A DNA stretch of 64,000 nt from Litomosoides sigmodontis. Taxonomy: Eukaryota; Nematoda; Chromadorea; Rhabditida; Onchocercidae. The stretch covers positions 3,179,317 to 3,243,316 of the forward strand of contig OY718804.1 in NCBI GenBank assembly GCA_963070105.1. The letters are read 5' to 3'. Both the position numbers and the translations under genes were made by a program. The notes under the pieces were generated by a model. That model saw nothing but the letters and a program-made list of their open reading frames with translations. It made no database searches and had not been told where the DNA came from. Numbering within the stretch: the first letter of the stretch is position 1; each line of letters opens with the position of its first letter. Positions 21,604-50,515 of the stretch are shown piece after piece.

Positions 21604-24600
21604 TTAGCTTTGTACTGCCCAACCATGATCCATTTGACTATCATACCGAATATATGAGTCATACAGAAGCTGTTCGTTATTACCTTCACGATTTGCATCC
21701 TGGAAGCATGAATTGTACTTGACCGACAAAATTCGCCAGATTAACGTGTTTCATAAGCATTAAAACGCAATAAATGTGCGTATATTAACAGTGCAATTTG
21801 TTATTAGAAAGGTTCTTAGTATGCATTGATATTCGCTGACATCTCTCTACATCATATATCCAGTTAATAAGCCTGAACCTTTCTTTTTTCAAATATGGCT
21901 GTTTATTTTAAAATCTTTAACACCTTAAGGTCCACTCATGCAATTGGCCAAAGTCTGACGTGATAAAAACAAAGAAATCGTGAATTTTCATCTATTTCGT
22001 AAACAGAAAACTCATCTACATACTTCTTTGTAAATTAAAAAAAAAAAACCATTTATAGAGTTCACGAAACTGAACAATGATGGAGTGTCTACTGCCAAAG
22101 TCAATTCAAATAGCCAACCTGTTCACGGGTCTCCTGGTGAATTTCGTTTTGTTGCTGTTGTTGCTGTTGTTGTTGCTCCTGCTGCTGACGCTCACGTTCC
22201 AATAGTTCTTGCTCTTCTTTTTGTCGTTTTCTACAAATAATTTGGTGAGAATTTTGTTCAAAAGCCAGTAGTGAAATTTCACTGAAGATCATCCTCAAAG
22301 TTTTTTACTTAGCAACTAACCTCTGGCGCCTTTGCGCATCCCTCATCGCATTATACTGGCGTCGTTCTTCACTACTCATTCTATGGTACTTCAGTCGAGC
22401 TGCTTCTGCTCGTTTTGCACGACGGCGCTGTGCTTCAGCTACCTAAAAATCAGAATGACTTCGCCCCTAAAATAAATTTCCATCCTCAGACACAATCTGT
22501 CAGAATTCAGGTATAAAAATTTCAAAACAGAAAGAATACCTGTATCATCAAATCTGCGTCCAAAGTAGTTCCAGACATCTGAGCTCTTTCCGCCATTCGA
22601 CACAGTTCGTCATCTCTCATGCGAGCTGTCCGCAAAGCTTTAGCACGGCGGGCGTTGAAGTTACGTCGCTCTTCAGCAGACATGTTGTGATAACGCAATC
22701 TGAAAATTCCATATCATACCAAAAATAAATTACTGATTCAAAACATCGACACTGATTTTAAACCAGATTAAACTGACATTCCACATGCTTAGGTAAGTTA
22801 CCTTGCTCGTTCTGCTCGCTTTGCTCTTTGCATTTCTAACTTTTGTTCGGGAGAAATTCCGGTTGTTGGTCCGACTGATGCTGCAGTCGCAACTGCCAAA
22901 ATATCTCGTCTATTTGGAGCCGTATTCATATGACGTGGAGCAGTTGCTCGATATGGAGATTTTATTTCCGTCTCGCTTATTATCGGTGTTGCTGTTATTG
23001 TAACCTGAAAAATAAAAATGTTTATATCGTCGAGGAGAATACGCAGGAGAGAAAAACCTGGCACACTTGCTGAATAAAACAATCGGTAAGCCATTGAAAT
23101 CCTACAAGACTTACCTGTCCTGACGGTAGCATCACATTTCCTTGTTGATGCTGAATTGCAGCAGCAGCGGCAGCATACATAGGAGGTCGACCGCGAGAGC
23201 GTCCATGTCCACTCATACTTGTAAGAACAGCTCCGGTTGCTTGATTCAAATCAGTAACAATTATCTAAATTGCATTTGATTAAAGAAAAGAACAATTTCT
23301 TCCATAAAATTTTCGAAATCTAATGCAAATGAACAAAGATGAAGCTTCCACCTGATGTTGCATGGGCTGTTGCGGTTCCTGCAAAGTTACAATAATATGC
23401 TGCGGTTGCGCTTGTTGTTGCATATGCTGTTGTGAAGTCTGCTGCTGATGTGCTTGCAGCTGTCCATGCGCATCAACTTGATTTTCGCGTGCCGTATGCT
23501 GCGCACTATCCGGACCACCTCCTTCCTGTACATTGTGAAGTTCAGCAAGCTGCGGAATTATCTGTTGTTGCTGACTCATTGTAACCTAGAACGAAAAACT
23601 TAAATTTATTTTACTTCACGACCTTATGTTAACATAGTAACATAGTGGCACTGAAAAACTGCTTTCGTCTTGATCATTTTATATCTTCGTCACATACATG
23701 TAGATGAAACGTTCTAGCTCTTCCTCTCATTCTCGCAGAAGAGAGCGGTAATCTACTAGAAAATTGTTGCTGGCATTAGTCTAACATTTGTATCTATTTT
23801 CTATTTCTTGAGATTTCCTAAACCTTTTTAGCTTCGACCTTCCATATTCAATTTGTCCGACGTATTTCCGTAAGCATGAACTTTTCTGCAATTATTTTCA
23901 TAAGCTCTCTTTCGCACCGCTATAACATAAAGCTAAAAATGCATTCGACCAACTGTATAACCCTTTGTGTTTGTTGGTCCTTTTTTAAATCATATATTCT
24001 AATATTTTTCTAAAATATTCAAGCATTCAATAGGAAAAAATTTCACAAACTTGATGTGATGTTTCTCCGTGATCATGGCTGTTACTGTGCTGCTGCTGCG
24101 GCAAGCCGAGGAGTTGGGGCACTGATGCTAACTGCAGCGGCTGTTGTGCAGCCCCTAATAGTTTAGTCGAATCATCAACCAATGTTAGAGTGTTCGGATC
24201 AGCGCTGATAAGTTGCTGTGTTATGGCTGGAATATGAAATACTTGCTTCCCATCCTCCGTTGTTGTTGCTGTGGCAGGAATGTGAAATATCTGTTTACCA
24301 TCCTCAGTAGTTGTTGCTGGAATAACTGTTTGTGTACCATCGGGATTTGTACTCACCTGCAAAAATTCTTGTTAGCATTGAAACCCACAATTTCCAATAT
24401 CTTATATTACGCACTAATTGTATAGCATCACTATAATTTAGTTGTATAATAATGCAAATTCATTCGTTCTGCAAATTTAGGTATGTGAGGACATTTTCGT
24501 TAGTTTAATTGATAACAATTATATCTGTTCCTTCGCAAACCAAACATTCCTTATCACACAGTGCTTAGGAATGTCAGGACAAATTAAGCTATCTTCTCTT

Positions 24601-27600
24601 TTTTTCCCGATCCAAATGAATTGTAAAACATACTATAACGAATTGTTCCTGCGGTGGAAGCCTTTTTTGCCGCATTAACACCATATTGGCTTGTCGCGTC
24701 CGTTTTAGCACATCTCTTTCGAGCGTAGATAATACCTCTTCGCTAACCACACTGTCAATCACTGGCTTCTGTTCCACTGCACTATTACTACTGTTAACTT
24801 GAGTCGAAGTTTCATTTCCATTTATAGACGACGACAAGCTTGACATAGCGTCCTCTGAAAAAATGAATTTTGAATTTCGAATCAACTTTGAGCACTTATT
24901 GTTGCTCTCCGAATAAACCCACAATATCAATTCCGATCCCAAAACAAATGGGGTGAGCTACAGGAGAACATCTCTTATGTCCAACGTTTCAGGTTACAAA
25001 AATAAACCTGATGCAGCACGCATCACTCGTTCGCGTTCTTTTTTTGCACGAGATCTTTTCTGATTATATGCTCGTCGCTGTTCTGGTGTCATTCGTTGGT
25101 ATCTAAAATATATACTCTTAAATGATAAGGGCTCTGTGCTGGAAGTAGTTCAACAACTAAACGAGGACGACAAATTACACAGATGAAATGAGAACTAAAT
25201 GAAAAGTGTTTACTTCATAAAGGAATAGATCTAATATAATCAAAGTAGTAAAATAAATGACATAATTATTAACGAAAACTTCTCAGCCTTGTTAAGGAAA
25301 GCAGGGATCTGAAACTCTAAAATGCATAGTCCCATCAGAATGCATAGTCCCAGCTTGAACAATTAAACCAAAAAGGTTAAGGTCAGATTTCCGTGAAATC
25401 AAGCAAGCACTTGCTTACGTAAATTACTAATTCATAGGCACTTTAGTGCTAATGCTCAATAACTAACAACTTGCAAGCATATGCATCAAGACTCCACAAT
25501 ATTCATATAACACTCAAACTGGATTCAACTATGTACCAAAGCTATTGTTAAAATGAGATTATAAAACATTGAAATCTAGAAATACAGAAAATTATACCGC
25601 AATCGTGCAGCTTCTGCTCGTTTAGCATTGCGTAACATAATTTGCTGTGCTCTGTTCAAAGCCTCCGCACTTATACGACCTGCTGGAGTAGACAGCAAAA
25701 TTTCTTCTTCGATACGTCTGCGACGAAAAGCCTCTGTGCTGAAACTAAAATTATTTACACTAAAGAATTTAGTACTTGGAAAATCCAGTTACCAACACAG
25801 TCAAAACCATAAAAAATGATGAACTGTGGAACTCGGTGAAGTTCTGCTAAACACAACAGGAATCATTTTGCCTTACCGACATTTGAACAAATATAAGAAA
25901 TCATTCACGATACTTTATTACCTTTGGTAAAGAAATATGCAACTTTTATAGAAGCATCAATCTGATGTTTAAACGTATCACTAAATTCCTTTAAAATTTG
26001 TGCAATAATTACCGTCTCTGATTGTATTGACGTTTCTCTTCATCAGTCATTCGATGATAGCGCAATCTCGCTGCTTCAGCTTTTTTGGCATTTTGTTCTA
26101 TGATATGTTGCCGCAACTTTTCCTCATCCATGCCGTTCTTCTTTGTCCCTTAAAATATATTCTTTCACATAACAAATAAAGAAATATAAAAATTTGCAGA
26201 TAATATGATATGAAGCATGAAGTGGCTTTATCAACCAGTAATTGAATAGCAAAAGCTTTAACATCTGAACAGTTTATTGATTCATATCAGTACCACTGTA
26301 AACAAGCACCAATTTTTACATAAAATGCAGCAGTTAGAGAAGAGATTGGAGTTCTGAAAACTTGAGTACTCTGAGAATAAAATTATATGCTTGAGAATAA
26401 AATTATATGCACCAATAAGCCGATATAAAACAATTGTGAACTTCCTAACTTAACCTATGTTCTAACATCAAAAACTAAACTTCCAACCAAATGATGAGAA
26501 GCAGAGCAAAAATAAAAAAAAACAATTGGCTGCTTCTCAACTATAACTATAAGTATTCAATCTTGAAAACAGACAGATTTGCTTATTCTCTACTGATAAG
26601 CTCCAACTTCATTTAAAAATCTTAAAAGAACAACTATTTCATGATCCTTCGAACCTGCCTTTAGCCCAGCACTTTTCTTGATCACTATCCACAAAAAAAC
26701 AACCATGAACAAAGCAGCAAGTACAACATCACCACCTTGAATGCCAAGCTGTCGAAAACGCCTTCTCTGATTGTAAGCACGTCTTTCTTCCGAACTCATT
26801 CTCTGATAACGCAGACGTGCAGCTTCAGCACGCCGAGCTCGAATTCGCTTTTCTCTTAATTGTTCATTTATTGCCGGATCATCTTCTATATCTTTCGACT
26901 GACGCAGCAATGATTCCAACTCCTCCAGCTAAAATATTCAAATAAAATACACATCTGCTCATAAGAAAACTAAATAAGAAAAAAAAATATATACATGCAG
27001 AGTTTGAAAATGGATAACTTCCAAATGTTCGTACTTCTTTATCTTTTTGTCGTTTACGCTTCTGTGCTTCAGTTCGCTTCTGATTTACCTCCTTTCGCTC
27101 CTCCAGAGTCATTCGCTGATACCTCTGGCGTGCCGCATCCGCTTGTTTTTGCCGTTTTAACTGTAGCGCAGCAGCAGTGTCAGACCCACTCAGCGAACAC
27201 GTTTCGCTACTACCACTTTTGTTTGCAAAATCTCTACAAGAACACAAAATCTGAAACTTCACCCTGGCCATGGTATTTTTTAGAAAAACACACAGGTGGA
27301 AAACAATTTTTTTTTTTGCAATGAAATGTATATTTAAGTGTTCCCGTTTCACTCACTTGCCATTTTCAGCTCCAGCTGATGCTTCAGATAGAAGACCGCG
27401 TGAATTCGCATTCATTGTTGCCGAAGTTGACGGGTGTTGCTGATCAACATAATAATGCTCATAAATTATTTGCTGTTGAGTATTTGACTGCCCATCATTA
27501 GTCAGCTATAATATGAATTAGCTGTTATAAATTAGGTGGAGAAATCAGCAGTTCTGAAACCGACAAGTAAGAAATTCCTGCGATCAAACTCAAATCTGAA

Positions 27601-28206
27601 TGATATTGAGTTAAATAATGGAAAGTTACCTAGTTCTTAGTTCTAGGTTACTTAGTTCTAGTGTAGAGAAAGTGCATGATTTACTTGTACAGGTGCCAAC
27701 TGCACATGAGAAAGTGGGACAGCAGTAAGCTGAGCCACCGAACTGGCTGTGTCAACTGTCCCCACGGATGCAAGAGTGCCTCTACCACTTGCTGGTATTA
27801 GGCCCGAAGCATCGTTTATTTGAACACCAGCTGGTAATACAGCCACCTAAAAATTACTTTTTGAAACCGAAGTTATTTAAAAAACAATTATTTAAACACT
27901 GCACTAGCAAAACATACATATTCCTTGCGTTCCTCGACAGCCGGAGGTAGAAATGCCCCAGCACTATGAAATGGAGATCCAGTTGAAGTGTAAAACGTTG
28001 GTGTAACGGTAGATTGATAGAGAACCGAAGTTGAGCAACCAGATGATTGAAACTGTACGGACGTTACAGCAGGACCTATATTAGTTGTAGGTAGGCCTGA
28101 AATTTCATCATTTCAAACCAATTCTTAAAGGCACTAAAATTTATTCAGAACTAATAAATAAATAAAATTCAATGAACAAACCATCAAGGATTTGTGATTG
28201 CCCCAT
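21604..28206 (-). CDS. Basic-repeat protein B (six copies of a ~24-residue STPR-like motif)
   Basis: Unrecognised protein, probably nuclear. Exons from the 5' end: 28206-28182, 28096-27918, 27846-27685, 27505-27357, 27233-27035, 26928-26736, 26148-26013, 25738-25598, 25102-25008, 24854-24634, 24356-24051, 23585-23352, 23264-23115, 23004-22802, 22699-22540, 22442-22321, 22230-22119, 21699-21604. The lengths sum to exactly 961 codons. Six copies of a motif like AEAARLRYQRMSSEERRAYN lie at about 27165-27090, 26850-26760, 26090-26015, 25625-25040 (split by an intron), 22830-22630 (split) and 22435-22355. Between copies 4 and 5 are Gln-rich exons, a duplicated TTEDGKQ-FHIPA block and an AT-hook-like GRSRGRPP. 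Copy 6 leads into a glutamine run. Start: the ATG ten bases after a CTGCAG acceptor. It shares exon layout with gene A. The motif resembles the 23-residue STPR repeats of FMBP-1-type DNA-binding proteins; this is an inference. Confidence 0.8.
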
Positions 28207-29868
28207 AATTTCCGAACCTGCAGTTGAAAAAAATGCACGTTGGCTCATTCTGCCCAAAAAAAGGTAGCATAAGCTACTGTAACCCAAGTAATTTGCGAAT
28301 ATTAAGATAAAAATATATTGTTCAAATTTTCACTAGTAGTTACCGTCTACTGGAACGAATCCTGAAATGGGTATTTAAGATAAATGTATACTGTCTCCAA
28401 AATTTTCCACCATTCGATATCTAAAACTTGTTTTCCAACTGATGTATGAAATTGAAGGAAGTCGATTAAATAATTTCAATCTAACGAAAAGATAACAAAG
28501 CGCTTGTCTCAAGCAAAGACTCATAGTATACGCTTCCGCGAGATCAGCAAGTTTATTCAATGAATCTGTGATTAAAATGGAAACACTTGGTGAACAACTG
28601 ATGATTCAAATATTCTGAAAAATTTTATACATATATAAGTCAAGTAAAATCAAACAATAAACTCTTCCTTTTCAGCTCTGGGAAGAAATTACGTTTTAAA
28701 AAAAAATTTATAGTCCGTGATTATCAATACCAGAACTTGTAAAGCCTTCAATTTTTCTTAAATTCACAAAATTCCAGGGTGCTATGAAGGGGAAGCTAGA
28801 TAATGTAGAAATATAAAAACAAGTCCTGACTACTATTTAATCAAAGTCGTGTAAAAATTAGGAAGTTTTCACACACTGACTGTCAACATGGTTAAGATTA
28901 GTAAGCTTAAATGCAAAAGCTTAAATGTACTCAGTTACTCAAAATTTCAAAATAAGAAAAATTTGAAACTAAAGTGATGAATTTCTTGGTACTAAAATCA
29001 AAAAACGCAGGAGCTCTCTCAAAAATAAAACTCCAGAGTGAAACGAAGACGACGGAGTCAAGTTAGACACGGAATGATAGAACCCAAATTATTACTGCAT
29101 AACATAAAATAAAACATTAAAGAGCAGAAAAGAACCTGAGAGTACACTCAACATGAATATTACTGCAAGGCCGTGCATTCCAGTACATATTTATGATATC
29201 AGCAATACATTTAATCCATTCTACCATTGTTACAAAGTTCATCTATTCTCAAACAAAAAAAAAAATGGTTTACAAGAGCTTCTTTTAGACAATTAACAAT
29301 AATATTTTAAAAACCTGGCGCATCTGTGCCAAGTTCATTTACGCCATGCACGCCTTTTGCTCTTTCGAATTCAATTAAAAAATTAACCTCCTTTTACAAC
29401 GTGCGATAGCAAAGGTTCAATATTTACCATCATATATATTGACAGCAATTAACTAATGTCTATGCACGGGGTAAAAAAGATGTCTGGAGGCACAGGAACC
29501 TGTCTCAAAGCCCAATGATCCAATAAAATGTTTTGAAAACATGGAATTCATACTGAAGTGTAAATTTTAATGTTCAAAAGAATATAAAAGGAAGTGAATA
29601 AAGGACGGATGATAATGCAGATAATGCAGAATCATATCATGCAGAATCTTTTTTACACAGAAGAATATAGTTCGCTCATTTATGTCATCATAGAGCGGAA
29701 AACATAACAGAAATATCCCCTTGTTTTACTATATCTAAAGGATTTAGACATTAATCAGGTTCCTGGCACCAAAGGTATGACCGGATTATAATACATAAAT
29801 GTAGAACACCCCAAAGACTGAGTTATAGTGTCATTCACAATACTGGAGATTCCAGAAGAAAAAATTAC
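28207..29868. other. Spacer between tandem genes A and B
   Basis: About 1.65 kb between the stop of gene A and the start of gene B, both on the minus strand. It holds the 3' UTR of A and the promoter or operon spacer of B. A short minus-strand open frame at 28560-28375 resembles nothing known. Confidence 0.5.
28218..28227 (-). promoter_or_regulatory. Splice acceptor before gene B start (candidate trans-splice site)
   Basis: Reading the minus strand, TTTTTTCAACTGCAG precedes the likely ATG by about ten bases. Confidence 0.35.
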
Positions 29869-32800
29869 TTAGACTCTTGGAGGCACTGTAGCGTATGGCG
29901 CAAGTAACTGTTGTTGTAGGTGTTGTCCAACCATCATTTGACCACCTGGTGTTACAGCGTACTGAATCTGTTGTTGTGATGACTGATTCTGAATTTGTTG
30001 GGGATGAATTTGCTGTACCTGAAACTGAGATTGTCCTGGTAACAAACATAAAAGGAATTGGTCCGTTGGTCATCTAATTCTACTCCCATTACACAATCTG
30101 GAAATCTTTAACAAACGGTCTTCGTACCTCTTGTCATCTACAGCTGTTAATGAATTTTAAAGCCCAAAACTAGAGTTCGGCTTCGTCCTTTCAAAAATTT
30201 GCTATTTTTTGTTGTGTTAAAAACATTTTAAATCCCTGAAATTAAACTACAAAAAACTAATAAAGTAAGACGAAAGCTAATTTTACTGTTTATGTAAATC
30301 AAGCTAAATTCGGCACCGTATTCAAAAATTACCTACGACAACACCATCACTACGCAAATGAAATATACCTCGCTTTTATCAGTTACCTGAACTTGTGGAA
30401 TCTGTGTCATTGTCTGCTGCTGCATAGACTGGTTTGTCTGCTGTGACTGCACTTGTTGCGCTTGAATTGGAGTTTGAATCTGCGATGACTGAATCTGAGC
30501 AGCCAAAACAGCACCACCCGGTAATACACCGCTACTATTTGGGATTATTGCTGTACTCGGCAGAACCGTAGTTACATTTGACTGAGGTTGCTGAACTACA
30601 TGCGCTGTTAAGTAAGCACCTGTAGGAGTATTTGCAGAAGAGGTTCCTCGTTGACGCATCAAAGCTTGCTGTGCCTAAAGCTGATTTTTTCGACAGTTAA
30701 GAAGCTCATAACGCATCAAAATTACTTAAATTGAAGCAATATTTTATATCTCGAATCTATTAGTGCTCTTCATTATGGTTCAACCAAAAAGCTTTAAATT
30801 TCCATTCACTTATCGCTAATACTTACAGCATTAAAAGCTTTATTCTGAAATAATAGCTGCAGGTTGGCTGCAATGGCTTTTATTATGACGTATCAGTCAT
30901 CAGACACCACGACGAAAACAAAAAATACCTGCTGTGTCCTCTTTATCACATCTCTCTCCAACGTTGAAAGCGCATCAAATTGTTCTTCTTGGTTACGTTT
31001 TCGGCCACGATTTGCATTACTCTCACTATCCTCAGCGTGTTCAAATCGCTTCCGTTTTGGTGTATACCGTTTTTGGTTATAGGCCTTCCTTTGCTCGGGT
31101 GTCATTCTTTGATATCTGGAATTCTTACTTAACGATACAGATCATAACTCTGAAGAAAGATTTATTCTACACTATATTCGGTAGCAGAAACCTAACACAA
31201 CACCTCAGCCTAGCAGCTTCTGCTCGTTTAGCATTTCGGACAACAATCTGCTGCGCTCGATCTAAGGCTTCGCCATTAATACGTCCAATGGGCATTGCAA
31301 GCAACATTTCTTCTTCCATACGTCGCCGCCGAAACGCTTCCGTCCTATAACAAATGTTCGAAATATTTTAAAAATCTCTGATGCATGAAATAAAAAATCA
31401 ACTTCAAAATCGTCCACATTTACCAGAATACAGAACGGCAATTCACCTTCTTTGATTGTAGGCCCTCTTTTCCTCCTCGGTCATTCGATGGTAACGAAGT
31501 CTGGCAGCTTCAGCTTTCTTTGCATTTTGTTCTTTAATGTGCCTCTTGATTGCTTCTTCATCCTAAAAAAGTAGGCTCATCATTTCTCCACATTCTTGTC
31601 AGATATTCCGTGTAATGTAACATGTAAATGTAATGAGAAAAGTCATTTTAAAAATTAGCCAAATCTAAGTAAACTCAATTGGAAAATTACGGGCTGTCCG
31701 TCAGGCCCCTTTAATCCTTCCGTTGCAGCAATTTGTCTCATCCGTCTACGATTGTTATGAGCGCGGCGTTCTTCTGATGACATGCGCTGGTAACGCGAGC
31801 GTGCTGCTTCAGCCCAACGTGCCCGCATTCGTTTCTCACGTAGCTGCTCATTAATATCAGGATCCTTAAACACAGAAAATGTTATGAGAATTAGCCTTTT
31901 TCCACAAATAAAACAATTCCACTACCTCTTGTATATCATTTGTTTGTCGCAACAAATTTTCAAGTTCTTCAAGTTCCTTTTCACGCTGTCTTTTGCGTTT
32001 CTGTGCCATAGTTCGCTTAATATTCAAAGCTCTTTTTTCTTCAGCACTTAACCGGTGATACCGTAACCGTGCCGCTTCCGCCTGTTTCGCTCGTTTTGCT
32101 TCATCCTTTTCTTTCTTTTCTTGCGTTGATCCTTTTCCACGTGTATACCTAAATTCAGGTTGTACTATCATTGTAAAAAAGCTATCATTCGAAGGTCCGC
32201 ATATAAGCACTTCGAATCAATTAAATATATCTAGTCACTCAGAGGGATTATCAGCATTTTATTGTACAATATAGCTTCTGTATCCTCCGCAGCACAGCAC
32301 GCATTACGCAACTTACTTTGCGACAATACTGGCAGGCGATGGATATGAAGCTGGCGTTGCACCAGCTACTGCAGCTGATGTAATAGGTGCAACCACGGAC
32401 GTTGTGGGAGCCTGTTGCTCTATGAAATATGAATCCAATATGGCAGCAATACGCCGTTCATCTGTTTCAGCGCCTTGTGGCTGGAGAATCTGCATAGTTG
32501 TACCACTCGGATTCTGCGCCGTTACAACTGCAAGTAAAGAGCAAAATGTGAATTTTATTTGGCTCAATATATGAACTATGGAAATCGTTAACATTGTCCC
32601 TTCAAAAAAACATTGCTGGAAATGCGCATCTTAAGTCATCGCTTTGATCTCTTCAAATGCACAACAGACCAAGTGAACCGTTGACTGAATTTGTTAGTCG
32701 AACTTAATTTAAATCACTAGCAACATCAAACCAATTCGTGTCAAATAACAAAAATGGTTGCACCGTAACTATTACCAGTCAGAACTGTAGCACCTTGCTG

Positions 32801-33823
32801 TTGAGGAGATGTGGCATTTACAGTCGGTGTAGGATTGACTGCTTGCACAAGGCGTACCTGCTGTTGTCCATTAAGTCTTGCAGCACTGTTTGGCTGAATC
32901 TGGACGTTCTGAACCTACAAAATATTAATTTCGTAAAGAATAGTAAAAAACACATCGAAACACTAAATGACTTATTCAGTAAATATGATAAATAAAGAAA
33001 TAAGGTAAGTTAATGATTAATGATTCGTACACAGCTCACCGAATTGGGAAGAAATGTTGATGATGTTGTAGAACTATGAAAAATAGGACCACTATTGGTT
33101 GTTGTAAATGGACTACTGGATGTTGTTTGGAAAAAAGCTGTACCTGCTGGATGAATAGTCATACCCGTGGGTGTTTGCGCTTGTAGCTACAATTGAATAT
33201 TACAGTAAAACATGGAACTGTTAGATGGATAGGAACGAGTGATAAAATTCGTCTCTAAAGCTTTGTCTGAAGAATGCTAATCACATCTCCATTTCATCAG
33301 CAACTAAAGTTATGCTCAAATTTCATGAAAAACTCATGGAAGTCATCAAAACCAAGCGTTCCTCAATTTCATGTGTAACTTTGAAGTGTTAAATGTTCTT
33401 CGATGCCACGTGTCATCACGATGTCAGTGCTCTAAGACACCGTAACATTATTTGTTGACAAGTACTTAATCAAAATAAGTACGGCTAGAATGGAGTAATG
33501 ACTACGAAAACTGCCATACAATCTCCCTCCGCGCCTACCTAACTTTACCTGCATCGCTGTTTTCGTTTCATCTTTCAGTATACTGACACGATCACCAATT
33601 ACCACATGCTCGACCTGAACACAATCAAAATAAAATACTTTTTTATTACAGTCAGAACTGATATCCCAGCACAGCCACATATGATAGCCTCAGGAAATCG
33701 CTCGTAAAAGCCACTCACAATTTATAAAAAAATTCTACTTTGGAAAGAAAGTAAGACCTGCTGCGGAGCAGAGTTAGATATATTTCCAGTCTGAAAATAA
33801 GCTGGCACCAAATTCTGATTCAT
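29869..33823 (-). CDS. Basic-repeat protein A (four copies of a ~24-residue STPR-like motif)
   Basis: Paralogue of gene B directly upstream of it. Exons from the 5' end: 33823-33758, 33614-33549, 33186-33040, 32914-32776, 32527-32317, 32148-31926, 31864-31691, 31562-31447, 31344-31204, 31115-30929, a possible 18-base microexon 30844-30827, 30674-30387, 30018-29869. They give 642 codons in one frame. The N-terminal third is Gln/Ser/Thr-rich (for example TTSSSPFTTTNSGPIFHSS). Four basic motifs follow: QAEAARLRYHRLSAEEKRA, WAEAARSRYQRMSSEERRA, KAEAARLRYHRMTEEEKRA and RAEAARLRYQRMTPEQRKA, with the fourth split by an intron after RLR. Spacers such as LEELENLLRQTNDI and TEAFRRRR are nearly identical in gene B. 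The C terminus is Gln-rich and ends TVPPRV. No known catalytic domain. Probably nuclear and nucleic-acid binding (inference). The donor near 30387 could instead be at 30369. Confidence 0.78.

Positions 33824-37789: not shown

Positions 37790-38120
<331 letters not shown>

Positions 38121-50401: not shown

Positions 50402-50515
<114 letters not shown>

Follow-up and report, generated by a model that had tools for sequence, protein, structure and literature searches.

Two neighbouring genes with a shared repeat unit

The minus strand of a 64,000-nucleotide stretch of the Litomosoides sigmodontis genome (C2:3179317-3243316, here called the window, within a 65.9 Mb genome of 7 contigs) carries two neighbouring genes, A and B, whose products contain copies of the same basic repeat unit. 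Gene A is near certainly the filarial form of GEI-4, a protein studied in Caenorhabditis elegans, and gene B its tandem paralogue. Exons of both genes were picked by hand from the minus strand and spliced, which gave 12 exons and 635 residues for A and 18 exons and 975 residues for B. All introns are bounded by GT-AG and both reading frames are free of stops. Model A is 100% identical to the public L. sigmodontis protein P0001, and model B equals L. sigmodontis P0068 (1001 residues) minus a 26-residue insert present in the public model. Public predictions back both putative gene models.

Ten copies of the unit were found, four in A (starting at residues 231, 300, 357 and 420) and six in B (215, 284, 339, 402, 807 and 876), in agreement with the earlier count. 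Over 27 residues the 45 pairs of copies share 63% identity on average (minimum 44%), while 1000 within-copy shuffles gave 12.5% on average and 15.6% at most. A hidden Markov model (HMM) of the ten copies gave its top ranks among 2131 stop-to-stop frames of the window to the ten frames holding the copies (for a split copy, the frame with its larger part); since the model was built from the copies themselves, this ranking says no more than that other frames of the window do not resemble them. When repeats 3 and 4 (R3-R4) were used as query against the whole genome (E<=1), at least 12 matches were obtained, and all those listed lie inside genes A and B.

The copies do not follow one another directly as tandem repeats: neighbours lie 55-69 residues apart in both proteins, except for B4-B5 with 405. 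Some are interrupted by phase-2 introns, two of which occupy matching sites in A and B (after QRR and inside AARLR/YQRM), and the spacers ELEELE and TEAFRRRR, said to be common to the two genes, were indeed found in exons of both. Comparison across genes gave 22/27 identical residues for A2-B2, 25/27 for A3-B3 and 24/27 for A4-B4, against 12-20 of 27 for the 21 within-gene pairs. As copies 2-4 are each closest to their counterpart in the other gene, the R2-R4 array predates the split of A and B. Copy 1 breaks this pattern (A1-B1 15, A1-A3 19 of 27), and its shared position and ELEELE spacer suggest that R1 may predate the split as well.

Two further observations concern gene B. Five filarial entries (P0068, P0071, P0073, P0093 and P0095) have public B models that read through the donor past B repeat 2 into a hydrophobic, membrane-helix-like stretch (window ~26732-26655), which is absent from the B models for Loa, Onchocerca, Thelazia, Parascaris, Dracunculus and Toxocara (14 B models examined, 3 of them not scorable); the stretch would be an intron annotated in error or else part of an alternative isoform. 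In addition, a 48-base tandem duplication within a B exon (window 24224-24319) yields TEDGKQ(I/V)FHIPA twice.

Relatives and age of the gene pair

A protein search returned 129 relatives, of which 120 were listed. GEI-4 or GEX-interacting is the name of 11 of these 120, and all named organisms among them are nematodes. A length-limited profile search gave 70 matches, again with nematode names only; thus no non-nematode relative was named among the listed matches of the protein search or in the length-limited profile search. The R1-R4 block is conserved in order and spacing across the 120 listed relatives, with adjacent copies 63 residues apart in 115/375 pairs and 69 apart in 95/375, as counted with a regular expression, which overlooks degenerate copies.

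A quick, midpoint-rooted tree of 57 rows chosen from the 120 placed 32 A-type rows in one clade (Shimodaira-Hasegawa-like approximate likelihood ratio test, SH-aLRT, 93) and 25 B-type rows outside it. Gene A fell with the GEI-4 rows and not with B. Long branches were flagged mostly among the B rows, whose grouping among themselves is unsure, and B most likely evolves faster than A. The A-type and B-type sets each span nematode clades III, IV and V, so that the duplication most likely precedes the split of these clades. Judged from sequence, genes A and B are old tandem paralogues. The term undescribed, used for both genes in the first-pass annotation, does not fit gene A, since relatives of it go by the name GEI-4 and phenotypes have been published for C. 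elegans.

A-type and B-type proteins also occur on consecutive locus tags in C. remanei (GCK72_011779/011780), Dictyocaulus (04277/04276) and Heterodera (030717/030716). Consecutive tags were likewise seen in Parelaphostrongylus (038140/038141) and Ancylostoma (13448/13447), with one protein of each pair typed. In Necator a single locus tag is common to P0018 (A-type) and P0104 (B-type), and Meloidogyne P0010 has six copies with unusual spacing; the pair may thus be annotated as one gene, or be fused, in some species. The features of both genes are compiled in Table 1.

Table 1. Positions of genes A and B and their repeat-bearing parts within the window
Feature	Position	Strand	Basis
Gene A, GEI-4 orthologue (near certain), motif copies R1-R4	29869..33823	-	spliced model, identity to P0001, names of relatives
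Gene B, tandem paralogue of A, six motif copies (R1-R4, R5-R6)	21604..28248	-	spliced model, P0068 match
A exon: repeat 1 and ELEELE-LLRQ-DI spacer	31926..32148	-	spliced model, copy positions
A exon: repeat 2	31691..31864	-	spliced model, copy positions
A exon: bulk of repeat 3; phase-2 intron after QRR	31447..31562	-	spliced model, copy positions
A exon: TEAFRRRR, RAQQI-RNAKRAEAARLR; end of repeat 3, start of repeat 4	31204..31344	-	spliced model, copy positions
A exon: remainder of repeat 4 and conserved LSTLERDVIKRT element	30929..31115	-	spliced model
B exon: repeat 1	27035..27233	-	spliced model, copy positions
B exon: ELEELE spacer and repeat 2	26733..26928	-	spliced model, copy positions
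B exon: bulk of repeat 3	26013..26148	-	spliced model, copy positions
B exon: TEAFRRRR, end of repeat 3, start of repeat 4	25598..25738	-	spliced model, copy positions
B exon: remainder of repeat 4	25008..25102	-	spliced model, copy positions
AT-hook-like RSRGRPP of protein B	23181..23201	-	motif inspection
B exon: start of repeat 5	22802..23004	-	spliced model, copy positions
B exon: remainder of repeat 5	22540..22699	-	spliced model, copy positions
B exon: repeat 6	22321..22442	-	spliced model, copy positions

Elsewhere in the window, a long ATAG array of 82.5 copies (37790-38119) lies upstream of gene A, and at 50406-50513 AT is perfectly repeated 54 times. Adjoining frames at 2.5, 10.4, 44.5-47.2, 48.9 and 56.3 kb gave matches to SH2, flavodoxin, UbiA prenyltransferase, AAA-type (below cut-off) and DEAD helicase models.

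Protein properties and possible function

Structure prediction, suggested for repeats 1-4 in the first-pass annotation, was carried out on P0001 with AlphaFold2 (61 sequences). The repeat region was modelled as eight helices (219-241, 245-278, 286-311, 314-333, 344-368, 371-397, 405-431 and 434-445), and every motif straddles a helix break at [ML]-[ST]-x-E-[EQ]-[RK]. In ten-residue blocks, the predicted local distance difference test (pLDDT) score was 83-94 for residues 291-440, save one block at 76, and 70-87 for 221-290; the flanks mostly scored <50 and were modelled mostly as disordered. The R1-R4 block of A has an isoelectric point (pI) of 10.5 and a net charge of +27, and the two repeat blocks of B have a pI of 11.1 and net charges of +31 and +14, while the flanks consist of 36-45% Q/S/T/N and are mostly acidic. 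The repeat block of A is far more conserved than these flanks: identity over R1-R4 is 227/227 with Loa loa, 214/227 with Parascaris, 182/227 with C. briggsae P0041 and 134/226 with Strongyloides ratti, compared with 191/207, 121/179, 29/118 (aligned) and 34/180 for the N-terminus. Neither protein gave a Pfam domain match at E<=1, with filters that drop most matches above ~0.1. A kinship with the HMG box, considered because of the arrangement helix, [LM]-S-x-E-E-[RK]-x-x-Y, helix, was dropped as Pfam gave no HMG match. Gene B encodes an RGRP core with a basic flank, the pattern by which AT hooks are defined; the form R-x-RGRPP is present in 6/8 B-type proteins examined.

A C. elegans study counts GEI-4 among the synthetic multivulva (synMuv) B proteins with less known molecular function, and the part of it used here reports that several target genes went up upon gei-4 inactivation, most of all the common ones (PMC3297578). 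In a screen of synMuv genes, the immune reporter pals-5p::GFP was robustly induced by gei-4 RNA interference (RNAi), as stated in the relevant excerpt (PMC11975079). Further excerpts report a mean lifespan reduced by 27% (PMC3483217), the location of gei-4 on record NC 003281 (PMC3418640) and, in Dirofilaria immitis, more gei-4 transcripts in intestine, uterus and testis than in body wall (PMC4642636).

Taken together, it appears somewhat probable that filarial GEI-4 (A) and the ancient paralogue beside it (B) are nuclear basic-helix proteins that would repress transcription through contact with chromatin or nucleic acid. The repeat block would dock on chromatin or nucleic acid, to which B may add its AT-hook-like motif, the Q/S/T/N-rich flanks might recruit partners, and the pair would have a part in repressing transcription, like the synMuv B gene gei-4 of C. 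elegans. Tentatively, and with less confidence, this could be extended: A-E-A-A-R-x-R-Y-x-R-M-[ST]-x-E-[EQ]-[RK]-x-x-Y-N-x-R-R may be an undescribed, nematode-specific module for binding chromatin or nucleic acid that was multiplied ahead of the duplication giving GEI-4 and B, and the two neighbours may form a two-gene repressor system with GEI-4 nearly fixed and B fast-changing, carrying two more units and a clade III AT hook.

Several points weigh against a nuclear repressor. The function assigned to A would come by orthology from C. elegans. No data on binding to DNA or RNA were found. The predicted template modelling score (pTM) of the P0001 model is 0.32, which together with the pLDDT means that helix positions can be trusted and packing cannot, and no PDB match to the model was obtained at E<=0.001. 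The C-terminal flank of A is itself basic (pI 10.5, net +5), and the AT-hook-like motif is missing from both B-type proteins examined outside clade III (P0111 and P0107). GEI-4 takes its name from an interaction with the GEX proteins GEX-2 and GEX-3, which belong to the actin-regulating WAVE complex. This name is in favour of the main rival in our ranking, in which GEI-4 would serve above all as a scaffold for the GEX/WAVE actin pathway, in the cytoplasm or at the cortex, its charged helices would bind proteins and the transcriptional phenotypes would be indirect. We consider this rather unlikely. Excerpts of published work that agree with it, and count against the repressor, report one GEI-4 peptide in an alpha-catenin co-immunoprecipitation together with gastrulation defects in 5/12 compared with 0/20 controls (PMC10081768), and full anchor-cell invasion in 6% with gei-4 and unc-40 compared with 28% for unc-40 alone (PMC4713207). 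Also in its favour, one table tags gei-4 with 'Filament regulation' (PMC3483217), gfi-2, a PP1 regulatory-subunit gene, is described as encoding a GEI-4 interacting protein (PMC3887533), and GEI-4, called a signal transduction protein, is the largest hub of one C. elegans interaction set with 181 partners (PMC7204028), according to the passages concerned. However, the single peptide stood in an initial co-immunoprecipitation list that, in the same excerpt, held >200 other proteins (PMC10081768), and a hub of that size may be a sticky bait. The synMuv B listing and the induction of the immune reporter speak against a scaffold, as do the high pI of the repeat blocks and the AT-hook-like motif in B.

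A role of the proteins in RNA processing or ribonucleoprotein assembly, with RNA as the ligand of the repeat block, seems improbable to us: in the part of the synMuv study used here, gei-4 showed neither enhanced RNAi nor a PGL-1 phenotype (PMC3297578), and the low Z scores are, by the comparison tool's own note, expected for long helices. The missing phenotypes count against the repressor too, as does a combinatorial RNAi table in which gei-4 is given as 'ns' in both strains, a term that the passage does not spell out (PMC1779603).

The pair is of interest because gei-4 recurs in C. elegans work on vulval repression, immune-gene repression, lifespan, gastrulation and cell invasion, and both genes are present in filarial and other parasitic nematodes. 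The conserved unit with its fixed helix breaks offers residues for mutation and a fragment for assays, and the tandem partner, which several nematodes keep beside gei-4, could hide gei-4 phenotypes or contribute to them.

Comparison with STPR proteins and C. elegans GEI-4

The first-pass annotation had suggested that A and B may be a nematode family of multi-repeat nucleic-acid-binding regulators and had pointed to STPR proteins. The nematode family and the basic blocks with Q/S/T/N-rich flanks held up and a regulatory role is plausible given the synMuv B listing of GEI-4, but the link to STPR did not stand. For comparison, searching with an STPR-like query gave 202 proteins, 120 of which were listed; 117 of these 120 carry PF21107, and some are named ZNF821 or STPR domain-containing (STPR background in excerpts of PMC4821344, PMC13362889 and PMC6849634). 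PF21107 was not listed for A or B under the Pfam settings given above, nor was it found in six frames of the whole genome at E<=10, a search in which no control genome reached the cut-off either. Adjacent copies are 23 residues apart in 0/375 pairs of the GEI-4 family compared with 159/213 in STPR proteins, and 22-24 residues apart in 0/375 compared with 160/213. With the repeat register fixed from conserved E and R columns, Arg occupies position 9 in 1/494 GEI-4 family units and in 326/331 STPR units; the ten window copies have Tyr, His, Leu, Phe or Val there (Arg 0/10). A Glu4-Arg9 salt bridge is described as important in STPR repeats in the excerpt consulted (PMC4821344).

Membership of A and B in the STPR family is thus not supported, and that they are divergent members of this DNA-binding family (silkworm FMBP-1, ZNF821) is very unlikely. 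What the two groups share is a basic, helical character and helices that break at an S/T-x-E/D-E/Q-R/K cap. When one STPR protein was modelled, its first three helices were 20-21 residues long and the last had 37, with breaks at the caps and pLDDT >90. A single-unit hhalign comparison gave E 0.0013 and a score of 13.2 (100 column shuffles <=11.2, reversed 5.1), a score inflated because both unit sets were chosen by regular expressions that fix the core, and a probability of just 19%. The GEI-4 units differ at position 9, where Arg gives way mostly to Tyr, Leu or His, and at position 10, with Asn in place of Leu, and A and B lack both the Pfam match and the 23-residue tandem spacing. A and B may still work somewhat like STPR proteins, as basic helices broken at an S/T-x-E-E/Q-R/K cap, which would be a loose analogy.

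Within C. elegans, P0101 (782 residues, labelled Trichohyalin) contains ten copies of the same core as A and B, but lies on a contig other than that of the B-like P0110 and has spacings of 41-126 residues, 4/9 of them at 41-53; it was noted as a third family member in this species. In the excerpts of the gei-4 literature no domain is described. C. elegans GEI-4 (W07B3.2, GEX interacting protein 4) is linked to gene A through source-given names and congeners and not through a record labelled C. elegans GEI-4. Whereas the flanks of gene A are little conserved beyond filariae, relatives named GEI-4 in several nematodes share R1-R4 with it.
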